NCBI GenBank assembly: GCA_018433865.1
Contig: JAHDQJ010000025.1
Coordinates: 1 to 45,431, forward strand
DNA from: Spirochaetales bacterium
GTDB taxonomy: Bacteria; Spirochaetota; Spirochaetia; Sphaerochaetales; Sphaerochaetaceae
DNA length: 45,431 nucleotides
Reading direction: 5' to 3'
The position numbers were made by a program, and so were the translations under genes. This document shows positions 16,597-33,348 of this stretch, in pieces. Below the pieces are notes generated by a model, which had not been told where the DNA came from, did no database searches, and saw nothing but the letters and a program-made list of their open reading frames with translations. Position 1 is the first letter of the stretch. Every line of letters begins with the position of its first letter.

Positions 16597-16621
16597 GATG
16601 AAGCGTAGTGGAGCCGATGTC

Positions 16622-18718
<2,097 letters not shown>

Positions 18719-18748
18719 TTGACAAAGGGAAAGAGGTATTGGCATACT
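18719..18748 (+). promoter_or_regulatory. Promoter of the nagB-degT-araC operon
   Basis: TTGACA (18719-18724) and CATACT (18743-18748) are separated by 18 bp. The predicted start near 18755 lies upstream of the GTG at 18798, which argues against the earlier ATG at 18762 as the translational start. Confidence 0.55.
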
Positions 18749-18797
18749 ATGTCCACTGAACATGAACATGCGAGTACCTCATGCAAAGGAGTGGCGT

Positions 18798-19562
18798 GTG
18801 AAAGAGTGGAAGAAAGAAAGATTGACTGTACGGGTCTTCAACAACCGCAGTGAAATGGGGATAGCCGCGGCGAAAGATTTTGCCTTGGCAGTCGAACGGT
18901 TGCTGAAGACCAAAGATACTCTTAACGTGGTGTATGCTGCGGCTCCGTCCCAAAATGAATTCCTGAGAGCCATGGCGAACGATGCACGCATTGATTTTCG
19001 CCGGATCGCTGCCTTCCATATGGATGAGTACACGGGCTTGTCCACCGACTCGCCCCGGTCATTCGGGAGCTTCTTGAAAAACGCCATCTTCGATCGGGTT
19101 CCTTTCAAGGAGGTTCATCTGATCAAGGGTGATACGAAGGATCCCGATGAGGAAGCCAGACGCTATAGCCGATTGTTGGCCACCCATCCGATCGATATCG
19201 TGTGCATGGGGATCGGGGAGAACGGACATATTGCGTTCAACGACCCTTCGGTCGCCGATTTCAACGATCCATTGGCAGTCAAGGTTGTAGAGCTTGAAGA
19301 GACATGCCGCCTCCAGCAGGTACATGACAAGTGTTTTCCTCAACTCTCCGAAGTACCGACACATGCGTTGACCCTGACGATCCCGACGCTCGCAAGTGCC
19401 ACATATCACTTTTGTGTGGTCCCCGCATCGTCGAAGACAAAGGCTGTCCATGATACGCTGAACAGCCCGATCAGCACCGCTTGTCCCGCTACCGTGATGA
19501 GAACCTGGGGACAACCAGTCCTCTACCTCGATCCAGACAGTGCACGCATGTTGCACGATTAG
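18798..19562 (+). CDS. Glucosamine-6-phosphate deaminase-like protein (NagB / 6-phosphogluconolactonase family)
   Basis: The 254-residue protein has the NagB-family fold and motifs: AFHMDEYTGL (substrate and catalytic Asp), MGIGENGHIAFNDP (active-site His; the classical form is GNDGHIAFNEP), and a conserved C-terminal LTLTIP segment. NagB converts glucosamine-6-phosphate to fructose-6-phosphate and ammonia. The altered NGH and NDP residues suggest a subfamily whose substrate may differ. The start at GTG 18798 is chosen because AAGGAG lies 6 nt upstream; ATG 18762 has no such site. It is followed after 9 bp by the aminotransferase. With nagA nearby, a role in amino-sugar catabolism is likely. 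Confidence 0.8.
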   Translation: MKEWKKERLTVRVFNNRSEMGIAAAKDFALAVERLLKTKDTLNVVYAAAPSQNEFLRAMANDARIDFRRIAAFHMDEYTGLSTDSPRSFGSFLKNAIFDRVPFKEVHLIKGDTKDPDEEARRYSRLLATHPIDIVCMGIGENGHIAFNDPSVADFNDPLAVKVVELEETCRLQQVHDKCFPQLSEVPTHALTLTIPTLASATYHFCVVPASSKTKAVHDTLNSPISTACPATVMRTWGQPVLYLDPDSARMLHD

Positions 19563-19571
19563 GAGCTTCAG

Positions 19572-20873
19572 ATGTCCAGATTGGCGTTGCTCGGTGGTCA
19601 GAAGACCATCTCGATCGATTACCTGAAAGCGGCTACCCTTCCCGTCGTCTCCGAGAAGGGCAAGCGGGTAGTGAATGAACTCATGGAGAAGGGAGAGATT
19701 TCACAATCCCCGATCGTCGCACGATTCGCAAGACGGTTCGCTGATTATGTGGGGACCGACTATGGACTGTGCACGAACAACGGAACCTCTGCATTGGAGA
19801 GCGCGGTATTCGCCGTCGGAGTGGCTCCCGGTGATGAGGTGATCGTCCCCTCCTACACGTTCTGGGCAAGTGTCACTCCGATCATCGCTCAGCACGGGGT
19901 TCCGGTATTCTGCGAAGTGGATCCCGATACGCATTGCATCGATCCGATGGATATCGAACGCCATGTTTCTGCAAGGACGAAGGCGATCATGGTTGTCCAT
20001 GTCTGGGGAAATCCGTGTGACATGGATCCGATCATGGAGATCGCAAAGCGCCATGGTCTGGCAGTGATCGAGGATTGCTCACATGCGCATGGAGCCTCCT
20101 ACAAGGGCCGGATGGTAGGATCGATCGGTGATGTCGGCTGTTTCAGCTTTCAGGGGTCGAAGACCCTTCCGGCCGGTGAGGGCGGCATATTGGTCACCAA
20201 CGACAGGACTTGTTATGAACGGGCTGCGGCCCTGGGCCATTATGAACTGATTCCTACCCTCCCCACAGACTCTCCGTACCACAGGTACATGTTGACAGGC
20301 ATGGGGCAGAAATTCCGTATCCACCCGTTCGCAGTCGCACTCGCGGATGCACAGCTGGACGAATTGGATGCACGGAGCGAATTGCGACGAAGGAACGCTC
20401 TCAGCTTTGAGCAAGGAATAGCAGACATTCCGTTCGTCCGCCCCCAACGTGAGCTTGATGGTGCTCACCGAGTCTTCAGTTACCACTATTTCCGCTACAT
20501 GCCGTCCACGGGAAATCCAACGGAGACCTATGCATTCCTCAAGGCATTGCACGCGGAAGGAGTTGCATGCGGGTACTGTGGATACGGACGATTGCACAAG
20601 GCCCCTCTTTTCTTGGAAGGAGGCCCTTACGGTGATTGCATCGCGAGCGATCCAAAGGTTGTCACGCCGTTACCGAGAACTGAGATGACCGCACGTACCA
20701 CGTTCCTCGCGGCACCCCGTTTTGAGACGGAATGTGATGAGCTGATACACCAATACATCACCGCGTATCACAAGGTATCCGAGCATATTGAGGAGGTCCT
20801 CGCGTACATGCGCTCGAACGACCTTTCCAAGGAATTGGCACGATTGAGCGGAAGAAGCATAGCGATGCTCTAG
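19572..20873 (+). CDS. DegT/DnrJ/EryC1/StrS-family PLP aminotransferase
   Basis: The 433-residue fold-type I PLP enzyme belongs to the sugar aminotransferase (SMAT) group. The PLP lysine is K197 in FQGSKTLPAGEGG, D168 in IEDCSHAHG binds the ring nitrogen, and NNGTSALESA binds phosphate. Members usually aminate keto-sugars attached to nucleotides or cyclitols in biosynthesis. Here the gene lies between a NagB-like deaminase and an AraC regulator in a transport and hydrolase locus, which suggests a catabolic (deaminating) or interconverting role. GGAG precedes the ATG. The substrate is unknown. Confidence 0.85.
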   Translation: MSRLALLGGQKTISIDYLKAATLPVVSEKGKRVVNELMEKGEISQSPIVARFARRFADYVGTDYGLCTNNGTSALESAVFAVGVAPGDEVIVPSYTFWASVTPIIAQHGVPVFCEVDPDTHCIDPMDIERHVSARTKAIMVVHVWGNPCDMDPIMEIAKRHGLAVIEDCSHAHGASYKGRMVGSIGDVGCFSFQGSKTLPAGEGGILVTNDRTCYERAAALGHYELIPTLPTDSPYHRYMLTGMGQKFRIHPFAVALADAQLDELDARSELRRRNALSFEQGIADIPFVRPQRELDGAHRVFSYHYFRYMPSTGNPTETYAFLKALHAEGVACGYCGYGRLHKAPLFLEGGPYGDCIASDPKVVTPLPRTEMTARTTFLAAPRFETECDELIHQYITAYHKVSEHIEEVLAYMRSNDLSKELARLSGRSIAML

Positions 20874-20884
20874 GAGCCAGGAGG

Positions 20885-21847
20885 ATGTTGCAAGAATCCA
20901 TTCCGCTGTTCACCATGCGGGACAACAAGAACAACGACCTTCCGGTGTACATCAGGACCTATGGTTCGGAACAGGTGACCAAGGGGATGCACGCACATCA
21001 GATGATCCAGATAAACTATGTCGTCACCGGCAGCATCGTCCATCAGATCAACCGATCACAATTCGTCATTACCGCGGGGGATGCGTTTGTCATCCCTCCG
21101 CTTGTACCACATGGTCTCAAACCGATCGAGGATACACCCTTCACGATAACCGAACTTGAGTTCAACCCCGAATTTCTCTGGGGCAACCTGCAACCGATGG
21201 ATCAGATGGAAGGATTCTTCGATTTTGCCTACATCGAACCGTTTCTCGTCAGCGAGAAGGAGGTCAAGCCCCGGCTGAACATTCCCGTCCGTGACCGCCA
21301 AGAGATCGTGGAGGCGTTACGGGAAATTACCGAAGAATACATGCAACAGAGGCAGGGGTTCCTCCTGGCAATCAAGGCATGTATCCTCCGCCTGCTGGTC
21401 CGCTTGGGAAGGCTCTACACACGAGAAGTCTTCATGGACGGTGAGGATGGCTTGCATGCCGAGCACTCTCGGGCAATCGGAAGGGCCCTTGCCTATATCG
21501 ATGAGCACTTCCGGCAGCAAATCGGAGTCGATCTGGTCGCGGAGCAAGCCTATCTCTCGAAGTCCTACTTCTGCTATCTGTTCAAACACTTGACCGGAAG
21601 AACCTTCCTCGAATACGTACAGGAGAAACGGTTGAACCATGCATGCCGCATGCTGATCGAGACAGACAGCAAAATCTCGGATATTGCCGTGGCCAGCGGA
21701 TTCACTACGATTCCCCACTTCAACCGGGTATTCAAACAGAAACTTGCCACATCACCGCGCCATTACCGCAAGCAGTATGGGACATCAATGGTTGCAAGAT
21801 CACCGTCAGACCTTGCGATACCCGTTCCATCGTTCCCAATACCCTGA
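20885..21847 (+). CDS. AraC-family transcriptional regulator
   Basis: The 320-residue protein has an N-terminal cupin-like sensor domain (about residues 30-110, with HAHQMIQINYVVTG and FVIPPLVPHGL) and a C-terminal pair of helix-turn-helix motifs (about 200-300: VAEQAYLSKSYFCYLFKHLTG, then IAVASGFTTIPHFNRVFKQK). Such proteins usually activate sugar-use genes on binding a small ligand. It is 11 bp behind the aminotransferase gene with AGGAGG before the ATG. Its last 42 bp overlap the convergent UroD-like gene. Likely targets are its own operon and the transport/hydrolase operon opposite. Confidence 0.9.
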   Translation: MLQESIPLFTMRDNKNNDLPVYIRTYGSEQVTKGMHAHQMIQINYVVTGSIVHQINRSQFVITAGDAFVIPPLVPHGLKPIEDTPFTITELEFNPEFLWGNLQPMDQMEGFFDFAYIEPFLVSEKEVKPRLNIPVRDRQEIVEALREITEEYMQQRQGFLLAIKACILRLLVRLGRLYTREVFMDGEDGLHAEHSRAIGRALAYIDEHFRQQIGVDLVAEQAYLSKSYFCYLFKHLTGRTFLEYVQEKRLNHACRMLIETDSKISDIAVASGFTTIPHFNRVFKQKLATSPRHYRKQYGTSMVARSPSDLAIPVPSFPIP

Positions 21848-22972
21848 GGCATCTCCACCCATGACCGATTTTTCGAGATCGGCACGGGAAGCTCCCCCGG
21901 AAATTTGCCGCTCCACTTCACGTCCGCTTGCATGCAATTGTCTGACCTTTGCTATCGTCTCCTCATTGCACATGATCGGCTCCATCACCGTGAATACGTA
22001 AGAAGCCCCACAGGATGCGGCGGAAAAGATGAAATCCTCGATCGATCGCATCGACATGTCCTGGTAGTGGAAGCTGCCAAGTCGCCAGCAGAACGGCAAC
22101 CACTCATGTGCACCGATGATCGCTGGGTTGAGTTTGGGTGAAATCCCCGGGTCGAAATCGGTGATTCCCAAGCTGGCAAGATATGGCAGGTGAGCCGGTC
22201 TCATATCTTCACAGTGCAGTTTCCTTGCAGGAATCGGAGCACGATAAAATTCCTCCCAGAACGGCAGGACCATCTCAGGCCACATATGGGGTGCATACAT
22301 CGCTGCGATATCGTCGCACAAGCGCCCATGATCAGGGAAGGGGTCGAGCACATCGCCCCCATCGACCGTGCAATAGAATTTCGTGTACTCGACAATGCTG
22401 CGGGTCACCAGGTGCATGCAATGCTTGAACAGATCGGGATCGTCATAGACGGCGTACATGCTTTCCATCCCGGACAAGGCCCAGAGCGTGGTCAACGGAC
22501 CTTCCCACTGCCAACCCCAATGGACCCGCTTGCCCGCGAACCTCTTGCGCATGATGGCCAAGTACTGTTTCTGTCTCTTGGTAAGCTCACTGGAGAAGGT
22601 GTCATCTCCTTGTACGCTTTCCAAAAGAGCCACTGCCTTGGCCAGTCCCATCGGTTGCATGTCCAGGGCAACTTGACCAGTCTTGGGAAAAATCAACGGA
22701 ATCCCCAGTGTGTTGAGATGTCCGTATTTGATCACTGGTGTGGTATAGGGAACAATCAAGGGAACATCGTCTCCGATCAATGATTCAAGACGATCCCGGC
22801 CTTCCGTGAATGCGGTGATGCACGCGTCAGGATCGCGGTAGAGATCATACATCGGAATACCGCACAGATACCCCAGCGTATCCACCGTGGCGATGACAAA
22901 CACATCAAACGGTTTTGCCAGTTCCATCGATGATCTCTGTGGTTCCGAAATTGTGTTGCGCGGATCAATCAT
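21806..22972 (-). CDS. Uroporphyrinogen decarboxylase-like (URO-D family) protein
   Basis: The 388-residue protein resembles the URO-D superfamily of TIM-barrel proteins, which includes haem-pathway decarboxylases and cobamide-dependent methyltransferases. Supporting motifs are weak individually: GWQWEGPLTTLWALSGMES, DDPDLFKHCMHLVTRSIVEYTKFY, and a central HCEDMRPAHLPYLASLGITDFDPG. Proteins of this branch are frequent in catabolic loci and are not expected to act on porphyrins. AGGAGG precedes the ATG. The gene overlaps the fusion gene upstream by 8 bp and is the last of the transport/hydrolase operon. Its tail overlaps the AraC gene tail by 42 bp in the opposite direction. Confidence 0.7.
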   Translation of the reverse strand: MIDPRNTISEPQRSSMELAKPFDVFVIATVDTLGYLCGIPMYDLYRDPDACITAFTEGRDRLESLIGDDVPLIVPYTTPVIKYGHLNTLGIPLIFPKTGQVALDMQPMGLAKAVALLESVQGDDTFSSELTKRQKQYLAIMRKRFAGKRVHWGWQWEGPLTTLWALSGMESMYAVYDDPDLFKHCMHLVTRSIVEYTKFYCTVDGGDVLDPFPDHGRLCDDIAAMYAPHMWPEMVLPFWEEFYRAPIPARKLHCEDMRPAHLPYLASLGITDFDPGISPKLNPAIIGAHEWLPFCWRLGSFHYQDMSMRSIEDFIFSAASCGASYVFTVMEPIMCNEETIAKVRQLHASGREVERQISGGASRADLEKSVMGGDASGYWERWNGYRKV

Positions 22973-25667
22973 GTTGAACCTCCTTGGCCATCGAGGAGAA
23001 GCCTTCCCATATGAGTTGTTCCAAGGAGGAGTCGAACGGTCCGGGCAGGCCGTAGTACTTGTATGCCACAGCTACCTCATAGCCCCCTTCATCGCACGCA
23101 TCTTCTCCTGGCAGGTAACCGAGCGATCCGTTCGCATACCCCACCAGCATGACCGGGGTACGGGCAAAAAGCGCCTTGATCCGCTTTCCCGGGTCTGAGA
23201 ACAATTCCCCGGGAACCATGCACAGCGTCACCGCATTCCCGATGGAGAGCACGGAGAGCTCTGCCTCTACCGATTCAGGAATCTGTGAAAGTCGGAGCAA
23301 CCTATCGATCCAGTGGCGTTGTGCCTCGACTTCCCATACCGGGTTATCATGCAACCGTACGAACGGTTCCAAATCTTCCGCTTCTTTCTGTGCACGCGCC
23401 AACTGTTCTGCATTGTCCTTCTGTAAGGCAATCAACTCTTCTCTGGACGGTATGGATCCGAATCGGCAGGAAATGGTACGCCGAACGAAACACATGTGAT
23501 TTTCCGTTTCACCACGCCGGACTGCCTTTTCCTGCAGCGAATCGAATAATCTGTCGGCAATCTCGGCACCCATGTGTTCGACATCTTCGATCGTGCCTTC
23601 CCTGAACGACGAACCGTCCGGTCCGAGCAAAGCCGGTCGGACATCGCCACACGCACCGGTCAAGGGAACCACGACCACGTGTGAACCAAACTCACGCTTG
23701 AGATGCCGTGCGATACTCCCCGGATAATCGGCAGAGACCGCTGCCACGGAAACAGCCAAGGTGGTAGGATGCACCGCCGTCTGGATCCATACGCTGCGGA
23801 TATTCCCTGCCATATCCCGGAAAATCGATGCAACCACCTCATCATCCCGGCTACCAGCGGGATTCGGACGCATCTGGATCTTTTGCGTTTTCGGATCGCG
23901 GTTTCGTCTGTTGATCCCGACAGGTACCTCGAACGTGACGGTATCGAGAGTAACGGGAGACAATCGGGGGCCGACCCTGCGCGCAGCTTCGATCAACATG
24001 CACTTCACATGTTCCATATACTCGCGGTCAGCTTCCAAGACTCCGAGATCAATGACCGGAGGTGCTGTATGGGTATGAGTGGTGCTCACGATGATGTGGG
24101 AGGTCTCCACGCCAAGAGGAGATGCCAAAGCCTCCCGTATTTCCTCAACCGTCCCGATCGAGAGCTCCAAGAGGTCAGCCACTACCAATGCGCATCTGCA
24201 ATACGGAGACTCCAACAATGAGATGCGTGCATACAAGTTGTCGAGCACCGCTTCTGACGGCATGTTCCGGGCCGCGTGTCCAGAAAGGCGGGTCCCTACT
24301 TGCGGAGTGATATCGACCTCAATGGCATCCATGGCAAGCGGGCTTTTTTTCGCAAGCACATCGTAGCAGTCTATCAAGGAGAGTCCGGTATGATATCCGG
24401 GATCCAAATCAGGAGTTGCCGGGATGACAGCTATGGGGCGACCATTGGCGTCGATTGTCTGGATAGGAATCTGGCAAGCGGACGGAACACGGAAATTTCG
24501 TGAGAATGATTGCATGCAGGTATCGAACCACTTCAATCCCCACTCGGACCATCGCGCACAACCGTTCAGTTCCTCGACCAGTGCGATGGCACGCAAAGTC
24601 TCGGGCAGGGACCACCAAGGCATCGTATCATGGATCGCCTCCCTGTTCTCTGCATCGACGCCCTTGGCAATACCCCCCGGCTCACGATATCCATAGGCGA
24701 GATTCACCTTGAGCAGCCTCATCAGCAGAAGCTTGGTCTTTTCCATCCATTGGCTGTCTATCGCCTCTTCCGGATAAGAGCTGTACATGAACCGCAACAT
24801 CTGGCCAGCAAGTCCGACAAACTCCAAAGCATGACCAGGATCGAGCAAAATGCGACCATTCTCGTCCCGGGAGGGCTTCCCATCGGGATCTATCCACTCC
24901 AACAACGTATCTTCATCAACAGAGATCCAACGGCGACCGACATTCACATGCTTTGCAAGGACCGATTCGACCAAGCTACGACCGAGAGCCGGGGCATCGC
25001 TGTCCCGTTCCAGTCGCATCAGCAGGCTTACGGCTCCAAGCGCGAGCATCTGCCCCGCATAGCTGGTACGGCCGTCGGCATACGGTTTATATTGCGATTC
25101 ATTGAAGCTGATCTGGTCGTTATGGAAATTTCCAGAAAGGATCGCATCGATGACCTGCTTCAGATATTCCTTCGCCGCACTCTTTTGGACCTTGCTTCCA
25201 TGGTAGTGATGGAACGCATACAGTCCTCTTGCACAGAAAAGGTCGCTCATCGTATAGCGGACATCAGAATCCCGACCACTATCCGTTTTCGATTCGATCA
25301 GGAAGCGCAAGTGTCCTCCCGAAACCGTCCTTGCCTGTTCCAGGTTCTGTGCGACATCATGGCCCAAGCCTATCAAGGCATCCGTGTCGATTGCGGGATA
25401 ACCGGAGAATTGGGAGAACCAGTGTACGTGTGTCGCAATCGCCTCCAAGCCACGACCTTGGATCCAACTGTATACATGATCCTTGTCCCGGATTCCGGGT
25501 ATGGAAAAATGATCGGTCCCTGTCAAGGCATCGAGTTTCAGGTCGATCCAACGGTAATCAGGTCGCAATGTGCGTCGCTTGAGCATCAGGAGCATCGTAT
25601 CGACGATGATCTCTCTCATGGTATGCAAGTGGGAAAGTACGGTTTCATGTGCGGCGTCTGTGTGCAT
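22965..25667 (-). CDS. Two-domain protein: alpha/alpha-toroid (AGE-like) fused to neutral ceramidase-like domain
   Basis: The 900-residue protein is clearly bipartite. Residues 1 to about 440 look like an alpha/alpha barrel of the N-acylglucosamine 2-epimerase kind (LLEWIDPDGKP, DPGHALEFVGLAGQ, MPWWSLPETLRAIAL). Residues about 445-900 match the neutral/alkaline ceramidase N-terminal family: VDITPQVGTRLSGHAAR and NLYARISLLE, STTHTHTAP (528-536), HPTTL (633-637), SADYPG (645-650) and TGACGDVRP (670-678). These include the zinc-site histidine motifs of that amidase family. There is no signal peptide, so it is probably cytoplasmic. Amide cleavage of an N-acylated sugar-like substrate is a reasonable inference; ceramide as substrate is unlikely in this context. 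It is coupled to the UroD-like gene. Confidence 0.75.
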   Translation of the reverse strand: MHTDAAHETVLSHLHTMREIIVDTMLLMLKRRTLRPDYRWIDLKLDALTGTDHFSIPGIRDKDHVYSWIQGRGLEAIATHVHWFSQFSGYPAIDTDALIGLGHDVAQNLEQARTVSGGHLRFLIESKTDSGRDSDVRYTMSDLFCARGLYAFHHYHGSKVQKSAAKEYLKQVIDAILSGNFHNDQISFNESQYKPYADGRTSYAGQMLALGAVSLLMRLERDSDAPALGRSLVESVLAKHVNVGRRWISVDEDTLLEWIDPDGKPSRDENGRILLDPGHALEFVGLAGQMLRFMYSSYPEEAIDSQWMEKTKLLLMRLLKVNLAYGYREPGGIAKGVDAENREAIHDTMPWWSLPETLRAIALVEELNGCARWSEWGLKWFDTCMQSFSRNFRVPSACQIPIQTIDANGRPIAVIPATPDLDPGYHTGLSLIDCYDVLAKKSPLAMDAIEVDITPQVGTRLSGHAARNMPSEAVLDNLYARISLLESPYCRCALVVADLLELSIGTVEEIREALASPLGVETSHIIVSTTHTHTAPPVIDLGVLEADREYMEHVKCMLIEAARRVGPRLSPVTLDTVTFEVPVGINRRNRDPKTQKIQMRPNPAGSRDDEVVASIFRDMAGNIRSVWIQTAVHPTTLAVSVAAVSADYPGSIARHLKREFGSHVVVVPLTGACGDVRPALLGPDGSSFREGTIEDVEHMGAEIADRLFDSLQEKAVRRGETENHMCFVRRTISCRFGSIPSREELIALQKDNAEQLARAQKEAEDLEPFVRLHDNPVWEVEAQRHWIDRLLRLSQIPESVEAELSVLSIGNAVTLCMVPGELFSDPGKRIKALFARTPVMLVGYANGSLGYLPGEDACDEGGYEVAVAYKYYGLPGPFDSSLEQLIWEGFSSMAKEVQHD

Positions 25668-25684
25668 GGTGTATCCTTGTCCGA

Positions 25685-26437
25685 TTACGGCAATCTGAAA
25701 AGTTCTTGCGCATTATCTCCCATCAAGCGGGATCTTGAGGATGCATCAGGTATCGCTTCCTCTACCATCCCCAACGCATACCCTGGATGGAACAGCGTGG
25801 TGTCGGTACCGAAGAGCACTCGATCATCTCCGAAAGTTCCGATCAACTGCAGCAACTTGTCTCCCGTCGTACAACTGGAACAAATCTCTGCATACACATG
25901 TGATCCCGCATTGGCAATCTCATTCGCAAGATACCAATCGAAACCACCGGCGTGTGCGAGGATGATCTTGAGATTGGGAAATCTCCGCAGTACCGGGAGG
26001 ACTTGCAACGGCGTCTCCCGTTCCGAACCATAGGTGTGAATCAATATGGGAAGGTCAGCCATGAATGCAGCTTCTGCAATACGGAATCCTGCATTCGTAT
26101 CGAAACGTTTTTGCTGTATCATCGGGTGGATCTTCACACCCACGAACCGCCGTGCTCTCCCTTCCGGGTTGTCGGTCCCGTAGGTCCTGATCTGTGCAAG
26201 AGACTCCTCTGGGTAATGCAAGTTCACGGTTATGTAACCAAACAGGCGTTCCTCCGCATGCAGAACCATGGCGAGTTCCTTGTTACCCGTAATGAAATCG
26301 TACCGGACAGCCCGACTGCTGGAAATGATGGTCTTGTCGATCTTCCAACGATCCATCTGGGAAACCAAATCACTCGCACTCAAGTCTGCTATGGGGAAAG
26401 ACCAGTGTCCAAGATGTGCATGCACGTCAACGGTCAT
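25685..26437 (-). CDS. Amidohydrolase family 2 (TIM-barrel) metal-dependent hydrolase
   Basis: The 250-residue protein has the amidohydrolase-2 pattern: VDVHAHLG at the N-terminus (HxH metal ligands), KIHPMIQQ, LIHTYGSE, ILAHAGG and FGTDTTLF (late Asp ligand), and a terminal MGDNAQELF helix. These enzymes hydrolyse or decarboxylate varied small molecules, and the substrate is unknown. The ATG is preceded by GGGGAGG and overlaps the paralogous upstream gene by 11 bp. Because all metal ligands are kept, this is the likely active member of the pair. Confidence 0.82.
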   Translation of the reverse strand: MTVDVHAHLGHWSFPIADLSASDLVSQMDRWKIDKTIISSSRAVRYDFITGNKELAMVLHAEERLFGYITVNLHYPEESLAQIRTYGTDNPEGRARRFVGVKIHPMIQQKRFDTNAGFRIAEAAFMADLPILIHTYGSERETPLQVLPVLRRFPNLKIILAHAGGFDWYLANEIANAGSHVYAEICSSCTTGDKLLQLIGTFGDDRVLFGTDTTLFHPGYALGMVEEAIPDASSRSRLMGDNAQELFRLP

Positions 26438-27146
26438 GGAAAATCCTCCCCAACAGACGTACCGAATTCCCCGTGAGCACCTGTTCCTTCGCTTCGGGAT
26501 ATTTCAGATCATCAAGCAAATTCATGGACGATTTGATTGCTCCGAATGGTGCTCCGGATGCAAACACCAAGTGATGCTTGAACCATGGATAGACGTATTC
26601 AATGGTACCCGGACCATGCAGAAGTCGGGTAGTGATATACAGGGATGAAGATTGACGGAACCTGACCGACCAATCCGCACTGTCATAGAAGTGCAAACTT
26701 GCGATCACTGCCATGGCATCTTCGGTCATGTCAAGCACCCGATCGATGTCAGCGACAGGAGCATCTATCAACAGGCAACAATCATGCTCGTACAACCACC
26801 CGCAAATCATCTTGGAAACCGGGTGAGAGATACTCCATGCCTGCTCCTGGGGATAGAGACGCCAGATTCGGGCTCCTGTTACCCAAGCCTTCTCGAGGAC
26901 CTGCATGCAACGCTGCTCCCCTTCCAATGGGTTCACGGTACAGACAGGGATATGCGGGGAGGAACGGAAATCAGCAAGCAACGCATCGTTTCCACTGAGC
27001 GGGTCGTACCACAATCCTTCGAGGTTGTGCATCAGCGCACAATCGATCCCTGATCCTGAAAGTAGGTTCTCAACCCGCTCACGCGAAGCATCCACGCATT
27101 GGCGGGGTGAAAAACCATAACTAACCGACCAGTCAACCGTACACAC
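26427..27146 (-). CDS. Degenerate amidohydrolase-2-like protein lacking metal ligands
   Basis: The 239-residue protein has the same overall layout as the downstream amidohydrolase, ending in FASGAPFGAIKSSMNLLDDL and VLTGNSVRLLGRIF, which align with the FGTDTTLFHP and MGDNAQELFRLP ends of its neighbour. The N-terminal VDWSVSYG replaces VDVHAHLG, and the GTD aspartate is replaced (SGAP). No HxH or HAGG histidines are seen, so metal catalysis seems lost. It may be a structural or regulatory partner of the active paralogue. The start is GTG with GAAGGGG 7 nt upstream, 4 bp after the permease gene. Confidence 0.65.
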   Translation of the reverse strand: MCTVDWSVSYGFSPRQCVDASRERVENLLSGSGIDCALMHNLEGLWYDPLSGNDALLADFRSSPHIPVCTVNPLEGEQRCMQVLEKAWVTGARIWRLYPQEQAWSISHPVSKMICGWLYEHDCCLLIDAPVADIDRVLDMTEDAMAVIASLHFYDSADWSVRFRQSSSLYITTRLLHGPGTIEYVYPWFKHHLVFASGAPFGAIKSSMNLLDDLKYPEAKEQVLTGNSVRLLGRIFHDR

Positions 27147-27150
27147 GATA

Positions 27151-27984
27151 CTACCCCTTCATACCCGTCAATGTGATTCCCTGGATAATCTTCTTGCGCA
27201 TCAACAGGAACATGATGAGCACAGGAATGATCGAGAGCATGGAACCGGCGTTGATAGGTCCGAGGTCGACGGTAAACCGGTATTGGAACATCCCGAGTCC
27301 GAGTTCCATCGTCCACAACTCCCGGCTGCTGGTGATGATCAAAGGCCAGATGAACGCAGCCCATGTCTGCTGGAATGCGAAGATCGAAATCGCTCCGATA
27401 GGTCCTCCGAGCATCGGGAATACCACAGACAGGAAAATCCTCCACTCAGAGGCTCCGTCGATGCGAGCGGCATCGAGCAGTTCATCGGGAATCGAGGCCA
27501 TGATGTTCTGGCGCATGAAAAATATTCCATAGCTCATGATAAGGTAAGGAGCTATCAATCCTATGAATTTATTCACCCATCCCATCTTCACCATGCTCAT
27601 GTACAAAGGAATCATATAGACTTCAAGGGGAACCATCGCAGTCGACAATGTAAGGATGAACAGAAAGCTTTTCAACGGAAAATTGAACTTCGCAAAGACA
27701 TAGCCCGCCACCGAGCTGGTGATGAGAATCGCCACTGTGGAGAGAGAGGCCATCAAAACGCTATTCACGAAGAACCGGGCGAACGGAGCTGTTGCGAATA
27801 CCGTCACATAGTTCTGGATGGTCACCGTATTCGGAATGAGCTGAGGTGGCCAACTCAAGACCTCGTGAGGCGGCTTCAATGAGGTGGAAAGCATCCAGAT
27901 GAAGGGCAGGACCATGATGGAAGCTCCCAATAGCAGTGACAGGTGCTTGAGTATGACCAACGGTTTCCCTGAGTAATTTTTCAT
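27151..27984 (-). CDS. Carbohydrate ABC transporter permease, MalG type
   Basis: The 277-residue inner-membrane permease has six predicted TM segments. The cytoplasmic EAA loop reads DAARIDGASEWRIFLSVVFPML, the contact site for the ATPase. It pairs with the MalF-type permease upstream, whose stop overlaps its ATG by 4 bp. The ATPase subunit is not in the window and is presumably a shared MsmX/UgpC-type protein encoded elsewhere. The cargo is probably the amino-sugar-like compound handled by the downstream enzymes. Confidence 0.93.
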   Translation of the reverse strand: MKNYSGKPLVILKHLSLLLGASIMVLPFIWMLSTSLKPPHEVLSWPPQLIPNTVTIQNYVTVFATAPFARFFVNSVLMASLSTVAILITSSVAGYVFAKFNFPLKSFLFILTLSTAMVPLEVYMIPLYMSMVKMGWVNKFIGLIAPYLIMSYGIFFMRQNIMASIPDELLDAARIDGASEWRIFLSVVFPMLGGPIGAISIFAFQQTWAAFIWPLIITSSRELWTMELGLGMFQYRFTVDLGPINAGSMLSIIPVLIMFLLMRKKIIQGITLTGMKG

Positions 27985-28946
27985 ACCAAGCCTCCTTTGC
28001 GAAGCAATCTTCGTTTATCTCTTCGCTCTTTGTTTCCGGAAATGCCGAATTGCAGCAGGGTGAGCGCGAGAATGATCAAAAAGAGAACCACCGCCTCCGC
28101 AGCGGCATAACCGGTACGGAAGTAACGGAAGGCATTTTCATAGATATCGAACACGATGGTCCGCACTGCATTGCCCGGAGCTCCTTGAGGCCCGCTGGTC
28201 ATGATGAATACCTGTGTGAACACGTTGTATGAATTGATCGTGGAAATGACCAGGACGAAGAGCATGATCGGCCTCAGCAATGGCATGATGATCCGCCAGA
28301 ATACTTGCATCGTACTCGCACCGTCGATCCTGGCTGCTTCAATGTAGGATTCGGGAATGTCACGCATTCCGACCAAAAAGATGATCATGTTGTACCCGAC
28401 GATCTTCCATACGCTCATGATGATGATCGCAACCATCGCGGTATTCGGAAACACCAACCATCCGATAGGCTCGATGCCGACCCAAGAGAGTACATAGTTG
28501 AGCAACCCATACGTCGGATCATAAATCCATTTCCAGACTACCGCCACCGGGACCATCGGCGTGATGACCGGCAAGAAGTATATGGTCTCATAGAGAGCGC
28601 TTGCCTTGGAACGTGTGGAGAGCAACGCTGCCAACAGGACCGCAAATGCAACACTGAAAAGAGTCACGAATACGGCAAAGTAGGTAGTGTTACGCAACGA
28701 GAGGACAAACAGATCGTCCGCAAACAGATCCTTGAAGTTTGTGAAACCGATGAACTGCTGGAGAGGATTCCCGATAGTCGACTGAAAGAAACTGTAGAGG
28801 AAGTTCTGGAAAATCGGAACTATCCTGACGAAGCCGAAGATCAGGATCACAGGAAGAATCGCCGTGTAGGCGAACACTCTCTTCTTGAATTCTGTCTCGC
28901 TCAGCTTCTTTCGCCCAGGAGACGATTCGGTGGATATACGTTTCAT
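27981..28946 (-). CDS. Carbohydrate ABC transporter permease, MalF type
   Basis: The 321-residue permease has a cytoplasmic N-terminus, six TM segments and the EAA loop IEAARIDGASTMQVFWRIIMPLL. The frame is open to an ATG at 28988, but that start lies inside the intercistronic hairpin. ATG 28946, with GGAAGG upstream, is preferred. It forms the heterodimeric channel with the MalG-type protein, and its position directly after the binding-protein gene is typical of CUT1 systems. Confidence 0.92.
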   Translation of the reverse strand: MKRISTESSPGRKKLSETEFKKRVFAYTAILPVILIFGFVRIVPIFQNFLYSFFQSTIGNPLQQFIGFTNFKDLFADDLFVLSLRNTTYFAVFVTLFSVAFAVLLAALLSTRSKASALYETIYFLPVITPMVPVAVVWKWIYDPTYGLLNYVLSWVGIEPIGWLVFPNTAMVAIIIMSVWKIVGYNMIIFLVGMRDIPESYIEAARIDGASTMQVFWRIIMPLLRPIMLFVLVISTINSYNVFTQVFIMTSGPQGAPGNAVRTIVFDIYENAFRYFRTGYAAAEAVVLFLIILALTLLQFGISGNKERRDKRRLLRKGGLV

Positions 28947-28969
28947 GGTTGGGTACCTTCCAAGTTTTC

Positions 28970-29003
28970 GATATATCGGGGAGCTCATGCCCCCCGATAT
29001 ATC
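28970..29003 (-). other. Intercistronic hairpin between binding-protein and permease genes
   Basis: A perfect 12-bp stem, GATATATCGGGG (28970-28981) against CCCCGATATATC (28992-29003), has a 10-nt loop. It lies 37 bp past the binding-protein stop codon. There is no U-run on the minus-strand side, so it looks like an mRNA-stabilising or partial-attenuation element that lets the binding protein be made in excess of the permeases. Confidence 0.7.
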
Positions 29004-29040
29004 TTACATGCGAATTCAATACAGTTGGGATCAAACTTCC

Positions 29041-30348
29041 TTATTCACCGAACATGTTGTAGCGTTGCAGGATTTGGTTCGTCTCGGCAGCTGCATCGGA
29101 GATGACCTTCGCGATTCCGGCAGGATTGTCCACGAGCGAGGAATCGAGGAATGCGGTGACCAGACGCTCTGCAAGACGAGTCATGAGCTCATCGAATGGA
29201 CCGATCGGGATGTATCCGAACTCTTCATACCCGGGCTCGGAAGCAATGAATGCCTTGAACTGGGGTTTGCGTGCGATGATCTCATCAAGCTTGACATCCG
29301 CGCGGGCAGGGAGCCAACCGACATTGTCGAGCATCCACTGCTGATTCGCGTCATTGACCATGAACAGTACAAAGTCCCATGCCAAGTCGGGATTCTTCGC
29401 AGCCTTGGTGACATAGAGGTTCTGGATGTTCGTGATGCGTCCCCAACGTGCATCGGAGGGAACGAGGGCCGTGTCATACTTCAGATTCGGCGCCTTTGCG
29501 GCGGTATCACCGATAACCCAGGATTCCCTGAAGAACATGGCAGCCTGTCCGAGCTGGAAAGCTTCGGCATCATGCTTGATCTTATGATCGTCCCAATTGT
29601 CCTTGTGCACTGCGTCGACGTAGAACTTGAGGGCATTCCGACCTGCATCATTGTTGTAACCGGCGTGATAGGTACCGGGAGTCTTGCCTTCGGAGATGAT
29701 TGTTCCACCCATCGGATAGAGGACGAACCACCACTTCTCAGCTACTCCGGAACCTTGTCCCGAAATCCTCAGGCTGTGACCTGCACGAGTCAGATTGCCG
29801 GCTGCATCGTACTTGGCAAGCTTCTTCGCATACTCATACATTTCGCTCATGGTCTTCGGAGGACCGGAAAGTCCGGCTTCGGCGAACATCTCGGTGTTGT
29901 AGAATAGCGAAGTGCGTCCCTGGAAGAACGGCACACCATAGACATCACCCTTGTACATGTTGTTCTTCAGCGCGAAGTCGCTGTATCTGCCCGGAGCCTT
30001 TACGAATTGGTCCACATTGGCAGGCATCTTGGGCATGAAACCGGCCTCTATGAACTTCTGGTTGGCGTACACAGATACGTCAATGATGTCAGCGACCGTG
30101 TTCGAGGGGATCGTAGCGGAGAGTTTCTGCTCGAACTCCCGCAACGGGTGGGTCACGATGTTGAATTCTACATTGGGATGGGTCTTCTGATACTCAGCGG
30201 CCGCATACTTGTAAAACGCTTCCATCTCCGGATATCCGCACCAAATCGAAAGGGTTTCCTTCCCTCCGGTTTCTGCAGCTCCGCCTGCGAATGCCATGCT
30301 TGCCACGAGCAACAGGGCGAACATGACGAGACACAATTTCCGTGCCAT
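29041..30348 (-). CDS. Extracellular sugar-binding protein of an ABC transporter (family 1)
   Basis: The 435-residue protein has a Sec signal peptide ending near AFA|GGAAE, a form common in spirochaete binding proteins; no lipobox cysteine is seen. The mature part has family-1 solute-binding features: LSIWCGYPEMEAF, YQKTHPNVEFNIV, VYGVPFFQGRTSLFYNTEMFAEAGL and a late KNPDLAWDFVLFMV. It would capture an oligosaccharide or glycoside outside the membrane and deliver it to the two permeases. AAGGAGG precedes the ATG. It is the first gene of the operon, with a promoter and operator-like dyads upstream at 30384-30437. Confidence 0.93.
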   Translation of the reverse strand: MARKLCLVMFALLLVASMAFAGGAAETGGKETLSIWCGYPEMEAFYKYAAAEYQKTHPNVEFNIVTHPLREFEQKLSATIPSNTVADIIDVSVYANQKFIEAGFMPKMPANVDQFVKAPGRYSDFALKNNMYKGDVYGVPFFQGRTSLFYNTEMFAEAGLSGPPKTMSEMYEYAKKLAKYDAAGNLTRAGHSLRISGQGSGVAEKWWFVLYPMGGTIISEGKTPGTYHAGYNNDAGRNALKFYVDAVHKDNWDDHKIKHDAEAFQLGQAAMFFRESWVIGDTAAKAPNLKYDTALVPSDARWGRITNIQNLYVTKAAKNPDLAWDFVLFMVNDANQQWMLDNVGWLPARADVKLDEIIARKPQFKAFIASEPGYEEFGYIPIGPFDELMTRLAERLVTAFLDSSLVDNPAGIAKVISDAAAETNQILQRYNMFGE

Positions 30349-30383
30349 ACACTCCTCCTTTTATGGTGTGTTGTCTGCTATGC

Positions 30384-30437
30384 AACATTTAATAATGTTA
30401 CGTGTTATTATATACCCCCCGAATATGGTGCCGTCAA
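30384..30437 (-). promoter_or_regulatory. Promoter and operator-like dyads of the transport/hydrolase operon
   Basis: TTGACG (30432-30437) and TATATA (30409-30414) are 17 bp apart on the minus strand. Overlapping and following the -10 is TAATAACA-N7-TTATTA. Directly downstream is a perfect AACATT-TAAT-AATGTT dyad (30384-30399). The 11-mer ATATAATAACA (30403-30413, minus strand) also occurs in the nagA promoter. The nearby ROK repressor is the likely ligand. Confidence 0.55.
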
Positions 30438-30720
30438 GGAAAATCTCTTGGGTCGTTGAAATTACCGAAGGTCTGACACATCATGAGAATTTGCACGACG
30501 CACCATCTGCATGGCGGGATCAAACCGCATCTGCAGAACAAACGGGAAAGATACGACAGGGGTATGGGAAGTAGCGTGATTCAGGATCTCCCGCACAGGT
30601 GTACCACTGGCAACGTCATGGTTCCGATCGGGTCTTCGGCCCTATCGTCCTTTTTGGCTCCCTATGCATGGGATCCCGAATGACACGGAATGTATGCCAT
30701 CCATCTTGCAGACCGTATGT
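30438..30720. other. Intergenic region downstream of the ROK gene
   Basis: No gene, clear terminator or repeat was recognised in these 283 bases. Together with the promoter it makes the 372-bp gap between the ROK gene and the binding-protein gene. A weak GGGCC/GGCCC-type fold near 30633-30650 is the only structure seen. Confidence 0.4.
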
Positions 30721-31917
30721 TCAATCCTGGACAGTAAGCTCTTTCTGCAATCGGTTCTTGAAGAGGCTTGCAGTACTTCCATAGATTTCACCCCGGAATT
30801 CCGGTTGCAGGAGGAGGAAAGTCACGTCATCATGCGTATACGGTGAAGTCCGACGGTAAAACTGCTCCTTAACATATGCATAAATCCCTTCATCCATAAG
30901 GAAGGGGCTGAGGAGGATGATCCGTTCCGGGTGGAGAATCTGGTAGAGAGTCGCAAGACTTTGGGCAAGGGCTTTCGCTGCCTTGCGGATGATCTCGCTC
31001 TCACCAAGATGATGCTCAAGGTAGAAAGGCCTGAAGTCATTTTCGTTTTCCGGAACACCCGGGTAGGCTTTGGAGAGCTCGGGAAGCAGAGCCCATAATG
31101 CAGCTTCCGTCTCCAGGCATCCGATGCCTCCGCATCGGCATACCGTCTCATTGTGCAAATCCACGGCAACGTGACCCGCTTCCATGATGTAACCGGGAGT
31201 TGATTCGAGTATCACGCCGTTCATCGCATAGGTGGCTCCGATGCCATAGCCCCAGTGGTAGAGGAGCGTTCCTCCCTCTTGATACTCGTTCTCATACATC
31301 AACAGGTGGTTCAGCTTGGCCTCAAGGCTCGTGGATACCAAGACCTCGGAGTTGAGTCGCTCACCGAGCTTTCCGAATGAGAAGTTCTTGATATTGGGCC
31401 AACGCATGGAGAATATCAGTTCCTGGCGAATCTTGTTGAAGTTACCGAAAAAAGACAAACCTACCCCGATGAACTTCGAACTCTCCGGGGTTTTTTCCTT
31501 CAGGGGGATGATCAGCTCCACCAACAAACGCATCAGATCATCATTACCCATCTGCAGGGAAACGTTGATCGAATTTTCTGCCAGGATGTCACCCTTGAGA
31601 TTCAGCAACACCGCTTTCAACTGCTTGGAGACGATATAGACCGCGACTCCCACCAGATAATCGGGATTCATGTAGAGCCGTATCTCCGGGCGCCCTTTCC
31701 TCCCATTGCTCTGCAGCTCACCTTCATAGACCATCCCCTGGTCGATAAGCTCGGCGACCATGTTGGAAACTGTGGTTGGACGCAATTTGAGATCGGTGAC
31801 GATTCTTTTCCTGGTAATACCCGGATCCAGGCATATCTGCTGGTAGATCAGTGCTTTTTCAGTATCCTTGATGCGGTGAGACGTCTGGTCATGAATGGTA
31901 TGCAATAGTGAAAGCAT
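30721..31917 (-). CDS. ROK-family transcriptional repressor (NagC/XylR type)
   Basis: The 398-residue protein has an N-terminal winged helix (ITRKRIVTDLKLRPTTVSNMVAELIDQGM, about residues 34-62) and a C-terminal ROK sugar-binding domain. The ROK zinc motif CRCGGIGCLET and the histidine of EAGHVAVD are present. The usual glycine-rich GIGVPGP reads GVGLSFFGNF, so ligand phosphorylation is unlikely and the protein is a sensor. It lies 19 bp behind nagA in one operon. By analogy with NagC it probably senses an amino-sugar phosphate and represses nagA and the transporter operon. Confidence 0.88.
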   Translation of the reverse strand: MLSLLHTIHDQTSHRIKDTEKALIYQQICLDPGITRKRIVTDLKLRPTTVSNMVAELIDQGMVYEGELQSNGRKGRPEIRLYMNPDYLVGVAVYIVSKQLKAVLLNLKGDILAENSINVSLQMGNDDLMRLLVELIIPLKEKTPESSKFIGVGLSFFGNFNKIRQELIFSMRWPNIKNFSFGKLGERLNSEVLVSTSLEAKLNHLLMYENEYQEGGTLLYHWGYGIGATYAMNGVILESTPGYIMEAGHVAVDLHNETVCRCGGIGCLETEAALWALLPELSKAYPGVPENENDFRPFYLEHHLGESEIIRKAAKALAQSLATLYQILHPERIILLSPFLMDEGIYAYVKEQFYRRTSPYTHDDVTFLLLQPEFRGEIYGSTASLFKNRLQKELTVQD

Positions 31918-31936
31918 GGGTGATGGGGAATCCTCT

Positions 31937-33118
31937 CTAGCTCCGAATGATATAACTTCCTGCGACCATTACATGTTCTACAACGAAATTAGGACTGAAT
32001 ACAACAATGTCGGCATCGAACCCGCAAGCAATCTTCCCTTTTCTTGTCGAAAGACCTGCGATCTTCGCCGGATTCACCGTCATCATCCGAACAGCATCGG
32101 TCAATGGGAGACCGACATCCATGTGCATGGTCCTGACCAACCGCTCTCCTGTCGCGATGCTTCCCGCGAACGCACTACGATCGGGAAGCTTCGCCACCCC
32201 ATCTTCGACGATGACCCGCTGTCCTGTCTCGTTAGCACCCAAAAGGAACTCGCCTTCTCCCAATCCTGTGGCGCGAAGCGAATCAGAGACAAGGCACATG
32301 TTTGCGGTTCCTTTCACTTTGTGTATCAAGCGTAGCAACGATACCGGCAGATGCTTTCCGTCAGCAATCACCTCAACCGGAAGATCATCAATCAGATAAC
32401 CGGCCTCGATCACACCCGCGTGCCGATAGGCATGTTTTCGAAAGACTCCCGACATGCCCGAATACATATGTGTAAGCAGGCTGAATCCTTGTTCCATCGC
32501 CTTGAGTATCGTCTCATAATCTGTGTTCGTGTGTGCCATCGAGGCTATTACGCCTCGTTTGACAAGTTCGCGTCCCATCTCCAATGCACCCGGCAACTCA
32601 GGAGCGAGCGACCAACGCTTGATATCAGGAAATTGATCAAGTAGCGGGAGGTACTCATTCGGATCCGGATCACGAATGTATCTCGGATCCTGTGCTCCGC
32701 GCTGTTCCTGTGCAAAATAGGGTCCCTCAAGATGCAACCCGATGAAGTTGGGCATGCCCGGGCTATGCTTGACTTGCAAATAAGCTTCGATGGAACGGCG
32801 GGTATCTTCGATCGATCCCGATAACGTTGTCGGCATCATGCTTGTTGTCCCATGTTCCAAGTGCATTCGCGCAGCTTTCTCATACGCATCCACGGTGCCG
32901 TCCATGAAATCGGCACCCCCTGCTCCATGCACATGCAAATCGATTAAACCTGGTGCTACATAGCTGTGCCTGACATCGAGCTCACTCTCGTGTTGTCCGA
33001 CAGTACTCCCAAGAGGTTCCACCCGTGTGATGATTCCGCTTTCGATATGGATATCGCCATCGATCATCCTGTAGGGAGTGATTATCCTTGCATTCTTGAT
33101 CACCCATGCCCGCTCCAT
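31937..33118 (-). CDS. nagA: N-acetylglucosamine-6-phosphate deacetylase
   Basis: The 393-residue cytoplasmic enzyme removes acetate from GlcNAc-6-phosphate. Metal and catalytic positions are visible: HVHGAGG near the N-terminus, HLEGPY (Glu ligand), MAHTNTDYE and LLTHMYSGMSG (His ligands), and LVSDSL (catalytic Asp). The frame extends 8 codons upstream, but ATG 33118 is preferred, with AAAGGTGG upstream. It is co-transcribed with the ROK regulator and starts from a promoter that carries an operator-like dyad. Its product would be deaminated by a NagB-type enzyme, for which the gene at 18798 is a candidate. Confidence 0.92.
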   Translation of the reverse strand: MERAWVIKNARIITPYRMIDGDIHIESGIITRVEPLGSTVGQHESELDVRHSYVAPGLIDLHVHGAGGADFMDGTVDAYEKAARMHLEHGTTSMMPTTLSGSIEDTRRSIEAYLQVKHSPGMPNFIGLHLEGPYFAQEQRGAQDPRYIRDPDPNEYLPLLDQFPDIKRWSLAPELPGALEMGRELVKRGVIASMAHTNTDYETILKAMEQGFSLLTHMYSGMSGVFRKHAYRHAGVIEAGYLIDDLPVEVIADGKHLPVSLLRLIHKVKGTANMCLVSDSLRATGLGEGEFLLGANETGQRVIVEDGVAKLPDRSAFAGSIATGERLVRTMHMDVGLPLTDAVRMMTVNPAKIAGLSTRKGKIACGFDADIVVFSPNFVVEHVMVAGSYIIRS

Positions 33119-33142
33119 GCTGTTGCACCACCTTTCTCCCAT

Positions 33143-33170
33143 ATAATAACATACAATGGTTATAATTCAA
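33143..33170 (-). promoter_or_regulatory. nagA promoter with operator-like dyad
   Basis: TTGAAT (33165-33170) and TATTAT (33143-33148) are 16 bp apart on the minus strand. The spacer is filled by the dyad ATAAC-N8-GTTAT (33146-33163). The plus-strand 11-mer ATATAATAACA (33141-33151) is shared, in the other orientation, with the binding-protein promoter. Confidence 0.5.
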
Positions 33171-33214: not shown

Positions 33215-33348
33215 GGCATGAAGACGACAGTCCGGAAGTGACGGGAGAACCGGATGTACAGAATCCCACCGAAGGATTTTTCGATTCGTTAGACAATCCC
33301 AACCATGCCCAGCTGTACATTTTTACACTTCCGTGGCACATTCTCCGC

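Follow-up and report, generated by a model that had tools for sequence, protein, structure and literature searches.

Which compound is handled by a locus that places a sugar importer beside an epimerase–ceramidase fusion, a NagA-type deacetylase and a NagB-like deaminase? The locus occupies positions 18,719 to 33,170 of a 45,431-nucleotide stretch (the window) of contig JAHDQJ010000025.1 from a Spirochaetales bacterium (assembly GCA_018433865.1), and a first-pass annotation had read it as serving the catabolism of an N-acylated amino sugar or an aminocyclitol-like compound. Pfam, NCBIfam, profile and structure comparisons confirmed that all the genes named there lie in one locus: the CUT1 importer, the fusion, two amidohydrolases, a UroD-like protein, a DegT aminotransferase, a NagB-like protein, NagA, and AraC and ROK regulators. 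The annotation had also held that no known pathway uses this gene set, and we found no characterised pathway with it in the literature searched, which was limited to open-access coverage, so that the absence proves little; the pathway appears to be undescribed there. The best explanation, to which we give a roughly even chance, is a catabolic locus in which a small N-acylated amino sugar is degraded without phosphorylation, and the locus is probably part of an amino-sugar breakdown route not yet worked out. The first-pass reading is thus correct in part, and the locus is better described as a version of a kinase-free amino-sugar module shared by several phyla, here with a fused epimerase–amidase and with locally added genes. 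All reactions assigned to the locus below are inferred.

A plasmid search with the fusion led to alphaproteobacterial operons in which the AGE epimerase and the ceramidase-like protein are encoded by separate genes. These operons, uncharacterised and seen in Martelella, Microvirga, Ponticoccus, Devosia and Nitratireductor, encode a LacI regulator, a divergent glucosamine-6-phosphate-deaminase-like protein (dNagB), an SIS protein, a NagA-like protein, a ceramidase-like protein, a binding protein, two permeases, AGE and usually UgpC; in Ponticoccus the AGE gene lies tail to tail with the remaining operon genes. They share with the window an orthologous importer, dNagB, NagA-like, AGE and ceramidase-like proteins, with identities of 47–51% for dNagB, 38–41% for the binding protein, 38–50% for the permeases, 28–31% for AGE, 24–27% for the ceramidase and 27–30% for NagA. 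Unlike the window, they keep AGE and ceramidase apart, carry SIS, LacI and usually UgpC, and have no DegT, UroD or Amidohydro_2 pair. A scan of 84,980 genomes for dNagB gave at least 576 relatives, and NagA was found near dNagB in about 70 of the 85 loci examined. In the Bacillales Fredinandcohnia and Paenibacillus (L063 and L068), the genes run from a sodium symporter through AGE, ceramidase-like, dNagB and NagA to SIS; a pair of genomes from the same class as the window (L158 and L159) have LacI, dNagB, symporter, AGE, ceramidase-like, SIS and NagA in this order; in Clostridia and Bacteroidota, dNagB and NagA are accompanied instead by Gfo/Idh/MocA oxidoreductases. The core, comprising an importer, AGE, a ceramidase-like amidase, NagA-like and NagB-like proteins and usually SIS, is thus a real module, and its recurrence in several phyla strengthens the reading of the locus as one for uptake and catabolism of an N-acylated amino sugar. 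UroD and DegT fall outside this core.

The main argument for a substrate without phosphate comes from the phosphate loops of these enzymes and the lack of a kinase. The window dNagB (18762–19562, plus strand; Pfam Glucosamine_iso, 1.4e-17) carries AAAPS at the site of the TGGTP phosphate loop and falls far under all NagB equivalog cut-offs, and all 93 subfamily members examined have F/Y-A-A/S-A-P where the alignment places T41-G-G-T-P45 of E. coli NagB. Throughout the 93 aligned sequences D72, H143 and K208 are retained, while D141 is replaced by N and E148 by D (E. coli NagB numbering; R172 could not be aligned reliably). A canonical NagB encoded elsewhere in the window genome, 61% identical to E. 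coli NagB, has a loop of the normal type, and the TG loop is likewise kept by the canonical NagB proteins from the same genomes as dNagB. In the core operons, the SIS proteins read N-A/S-Y-G-I-N, compared to S-N-S-G-R-N in a conventional SIS relative, so that the SIS partner, too, has lost its phosphate loop. No recognised hexosamine kinase was found in the core operons examined (the window, the alphaproteobacterial plasmids, the Bacillales and the genomes of the same class). The only matches near dNagB in searches for ROK and PfkB kinases were ROK proteins of regulator length and, in one species, a single PfkB (ten ROK-locus queries, one of them set aside as a NagB neighbour matching dNagB itself), and G111, a genome with the core operon, gave no ROK match. 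The loss of phosphate loops in two unrelated phosphosugar folds, together with the lack of a kinase, argues for a non-phosphorylated substrate; for this kinase-free part of the explanation, taken by itself, we consider the case about evenly balanced. The window NagA (31937–33142, minus strand) scores 251.6 bits with TIGR00221, above the equivalog cut-off of 225.65, and keeps the equivalents of Arg227 and His251. Arg227, retained in 77 of the 79 NagA proteins examined, is the partner of the phosphate group in the E. coli enzyme, and its retention would be consistent with another anion at C6. As a separate observation, the dNagB proteins of 80 genome loci (L029–L108), in Clostridia and Bacteroidota, form a large subfamily that lacks the phosphate loop and is as a rule accompanied by NagA, many members also having two Gfo/Idh/MocA proteins with them.

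The fusion (22965–25667, minus strand) is one uninterrupted frame of 900 residues, and the protein genuinely joins an AGE-type sugar epimerase to an amidase of the neutral-ceramidase fold. Residues 1–432 (24372–25667) match GlcNAc_2-epim at 2.3e-8, with 34.1 bits against a Pfam cut-off of 23.4, and contain the QGR, GHxxE and (Y/F)H motifs (Arg, His/Glu and His) common to unfused AGE proteins; the structural model of this half was built from few relatives and has low confidence, with epimerases found at a Z-score of about 8 among a helical background. Residues from about 440 to 900 (22965–24350) are assigned by profile, structure and motifs. This half reaches only 19.9 bits, under the Pfam cut-off of 32.1, but in a profile with its relatives it matches human neutral ceramidase at 1.6e-19 and the Pseudomonas enzyme at 4.4e-16, and its predicted structure (predicted local distance difference test, pLDDT, mostly >90) aligns with P. 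aeruginosa neutral ceramidase with a Z-score of 37.4 and a root-mean-square deviation of 3.6 over 402 residues. The metal-ligand motifs HxH, HP, GE and GY (His, His, Glu and Tyr) are kept, and the active-site Ser of GDxSP is replaced by Arg (GDVRP). The half resembles the neutral ceramidases of P. aeruginosa (2zws) and human (4wgk) in fold and metal-ligand motifs, but differs in being much shorter, in the GDVRP sequence, in its fusion to an epimerase and in its sugar operon context. Among the 296 genomes of the phylum, the fused form occurs in this genome only. The ceramidase-like family is strongly expanded in one clostridial genome, G306, which has 13 matches (L115, L120, L127 and others).

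From these assignments a route can be proposed. The CUT1 importer, whose binding protein and two permeases are all encoded in the locus, would take up the sugar, as its orthology suggests. The AGE half, with its catalytic residues conserved, would epimerise or isomerise the sugar at C1/C2, and the ceramidase-fold half, with its ligand residues conserved, would hydrolyse an N-acyl amide in a metal-dependent reaction. NagA would then strip the C2 acetyl group and dNagB would deaminate and isomerise the resulting free 2-amino sugar, giving a ketose and ammonia; DegT may take off a further amino group or replace the SIS enzyme of the related operons. The likeliest substrate class would be an N-acyl-2-amino (or 2,3-diamino) hexuronic acid, an identity that we put forward tentatively and rate well below an even chance; in this case the C6 carboxylate would lie where the phosphate normally sits and the product of dNagB would be fructuronate. 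The first-pass annotation had also implied entry into glycolysis, for which we found no direct evidence.

The uronate idea comes from neighbouring genes in other operons. In three plasmids the Nitratireductor operon runs on into UxuA (mannonate dehydratase), with a mannitol-dehydrogenase-family gene annotated ahead of UxuA in two of the three. In Agrobacterium CFBP6624, a dNagB–NagA–CUT1 operon of the Gfo variant ends in a mannitol-dehydrogenase-family gene and UxuA, and Ancylobacter has UxuA, a mannitol-dehydrogenase-family gene and an AGE protein near a NagB-like protein of lower similarity (39%). Enzymes of the UxuA/UxuB type act on fructuronate and mannonate, which are the products expected if dNagB deaminates 2-amino-2-deoxyglucuronate. 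In addition, a third locus of the window genome (L221, contig 15, 13000–32900) encodes a NagA-like protein 45% identical to alphaproteobacterial NagA, a TRAP importer (DctP and DctM), an SIS protein of the type associated with dNagB, and a NagB-like protein that keeps a TGAS loop, with TctA/TctC genes nearby. TRAP importers mostly take carboxylates. The UxuA/UxuB genes in the same operon and the TRAP importer of L221 hint at a substrate with a C6 carboxylate, an N-acyl hexosaminuronate; we treat the uronate idea as a lead rather than a finding. A general partnership of UxuA with dNagB was rejected, as UxuA is present in only one of the 80 loci of the genome collection (L097).

That low frequency is one of several observations that weigh against the kinase-free uronate route. 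No UxuA family member is found in the window genome, which is 99.9% complete, nor in the Fredinandcohnia genome (G296), and the Agrobacterium operon with UxuA is of the Gfo variant, not the AGE–ceramidase variant. The dNagB cluster of Spirosoma (Bacteroidota) includes a beta-N-acetylhexosaminidase, pointing to an amino sugar that is neutral. The dNagB tree groups the window protein with clostridial dNagB proteins that lie beside Gfo/Idh/MocA genes, not with those of the AGE–ceramidase operons, several supports along the path to the window protein being weak; the locus looks like a mosaic, assembled from parts of different origin. Finally, the window NagA passes the cut-off for GlcNAc-6-phosphate deacetylase, and kinase-sized ROK proteins are encoded elsewhere in the window genome.

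These last two points, with the retained Arg227 and His251 of NagA and the retained active-site residues of AGE, would also fit an ordinary phosphorylated route of the N-acetylmannosamine (ManNAc) or N-acetylglucosamine (GlcNAc) kind, in which N-acyl-mannosamine is turned by AGE into N-acyl-glucosamine, then phosphorylated by a kinase from elsewhere in the genome and carried on to fructose 6-phosphate by NagA and dNagB. The locus does resemble GlcNAc catabolism (nagA and nagB with a kinase or a phosphotransferase system, PTS) in its NagA equivalog, its NagB superfamily member and its NagC/Mlc-like ROK regulator; it differs in having no kinase, in a dNagB without the phosphate loop and in the extra epimerase–amidase fusion. 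Catabolism of sialic acid and ManNAc with an AGE-type epimerase exists, as in Bacteroides fragilis, and the window locus shares the combination of AGE, NagA and a NagB-like protein with it, but has neither lyase nor kinase: there was no Pfam match to the N-acetylneuraminate lyase family among the locus genes and no hexosamine kinase or PTS among the scanned window genes. The phosphorylated route is further opposed by the phosphate loops of dNagB and SIS, replaced in every member examined, by the lack of any queried kinase type that travels with the module, by the core-operon genome without any ROK match, and by the canonical NagB encoded separately in the window genome; it also leaves the ceramidase-fold amidase without a role. 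We consider this route unlikely.

A further candidate is a pathway acting on a di-amino or 3-amino sugar, e.g. a 2,3-diacetamido-2,3-dideoxy uronate. Here the two amidases would take off two acyl groups, DegT would remove the 3-amino group in a reversal of WbpE, and dNagB would remove the 2-amino group. Every core operon has two amidases. Four unrelated loci, one of them a second locus of the window genome, have DegT directly beside ceramidase-like genes, and Gfo/Idh/MocA oxidoreductases, which we take to be the class of WbpB, lie beside many dNagB genes. The biosynthesis of 2,3-diacetamido-type sugars employs a 3-dehydrogenase and a pyridoxal-phosphate enzyme (PMC10622841). However, the other core operons have no DegT, the window locus has no Gfo-type reductase, and many keto sugars serve DegT enzymes; we regard this route as quite improbable.

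Returning to the kinase-free catabolism of N-acyl hexosaminuronates, the full proposal would be that several phyla degrade such sugars, possibly including 2,3-diamino uronates from bacterial surface polysaccharides, with dNagB as a 2-amino-2-deoxy-uronate deaminase and a ceramidase-fold sugar N-deacylase, here part of a bifunctional fusion. In this complete form we hold it to be rather doubtful. If correct, it would assign a role to a widespread NagB-like subfamily whose members lack the phosphate loop but are labelled glucosamine-6-phosphate deaminase or 6-phosphogluconolactonase in databases, and likewise to bacterial ceramidase-like proteins that take their annotation from a lipid enzyme. 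With an amino uronate as the substrate, it would also reveal how bacteria feed on such sugars in the surface polysaccharides of other bacteria.

The locus consists of two tight convergent blocks, with an operon-like gene order within both. The plus block (18762–21847) contains dNagB, the DegT/DnrJ/EryC1/StrS aminotransferase (19572–20873; Pfam DegT, 2.8e-84) and an AraC-type regulator with a cupin domain (20885–21847; HTH_18, 1e-22; AraC_binding, 6.2e-14), with spacings of 9 and 11 bases. The minus block (33142–21806) starts with NagA and a ROK-family regulator (30721–31917; Pfam ROK, 4.6e-20; nearest NCBIfam models Mlc and NagC), followed by the CUT1 solute-binding lipoprotein (29041–30348; SBP_bac_8, 1e-30; 38–41% identity to the alphaproteobacterial operons) and two CUT1 permeases with BPD_transp_1 matches (27981–28988 and 27151–27984; 38–43% and 47–50% identity, respectively). 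It continues with two amidohydrolase-like genes, the fusion and the UroD-like gene. Most of its genes overlap or lie 4–52 bases apart, and the single gap of 372 bases, between ROK and the binding-protein gene, may contain a promoter upstream of the latter. No dedicated importer ATPase was found among the locus genes, whereas the operons of the relatives carry UgpC. The co-regulation expected by the first-pass annotation did not emerge, as the best operator matches shared by the nagA, binding-protein and nagB promoter regions were no better than those in shuffled sequences. This lack of a shared operator, and the UroD and amidohydrolase genes, rare and unlinked elsewhere, would suit a chance neighbourhood of unrelated genes; the overlapping co-directional genes and the same core with an orthologous importer in several lineages speak against it. 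For the core, the chance reading is already contradicted by the conserved gene sets, and only UroD and the amidohydrolases could still be explained by it; for the locus as a whole it has the slightest probability of the readings weighed here.

Outside the conserved core, the locus has UroD, DegT and the amidohydrolase pair as local additions. The UroD-like protein (21806–22972, minus strand) reaches 13.4 bits (E 0.039), under the Pfam cut-off of 23.9, and is assigned to the UroD/MtaA fold through its AlphaFold model (pLDDT 85.9), for which Foldseek returned MtaA at 3.8e-9 and UroD at 3.7e-8; it thus resembles the uroporphyrinogen decarboxylase/MtaA superfamily in predicted fold and departs from it in sequence. 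Its homologues in Clostridia lie without other window genes beside them, and no match was found in plasmids. UroD as a marker of the pathway was rejected, being present in only one genome (this one) among 292 from the phylum and in 12 of 245 genomes of the class of G306. The second locus of the window genome (L152, contig 33, 143000–162000) encodes UroD-like, ROK, ceramidase-like, DegT and Gfo/Idh/MocA proteins and a PIG-L de-N-acetylase, with CUT1 permeases upstream, so that the combination of UroD, ROK, ceramidase and DegT occurs twice in this genome; the two UroD proteins have no significant sequence similarity to each other.

The best solved relatives of DegT are 8gyh and aminotransferases of sugars and of scyllo-inosose. 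This last resemblance, one among many, is what favours the aminocyclitol alternative of the first-pass annotation, in which the locus would serve an aminocyclitol or inositol derivative. The alternative fared poorly, as no inositol-pathway enzyme was recognised by Pfam or NCBIfam among the scanned window genes, the relatives of AGE, NagA and NagB all act on aldoses, and the core occurs elsewhere without DegT; we regard it as very improbable.

The Amidohydro_2 protein (25685–26437, minus strand; Pfam, 1.4e-24) has metal-binding motifs and is apparently active. Its degenerate partner (26427–27146, minus strand), with no Pfam match and no metal-binding residues, is recognised as amidohydrolase-like solely through its pairing with this neighbour. 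A pair with and without metal ligands recurs in another locus (L225) beside a glutamate dehydrogenase gene, and AH2b, an amidohydrolase-like protein, has one weak relative in 245 genomes. Outside the locus, a 593-codon plus-strand frame with no Pfam match (16598–18379) runs antisense over a chaperonin-like (Cpn60) gene on the minus strand (16622–18358) and is probably not a gene; at the other end, the outer neighbour is a thioredoxin-like gene at 33333.

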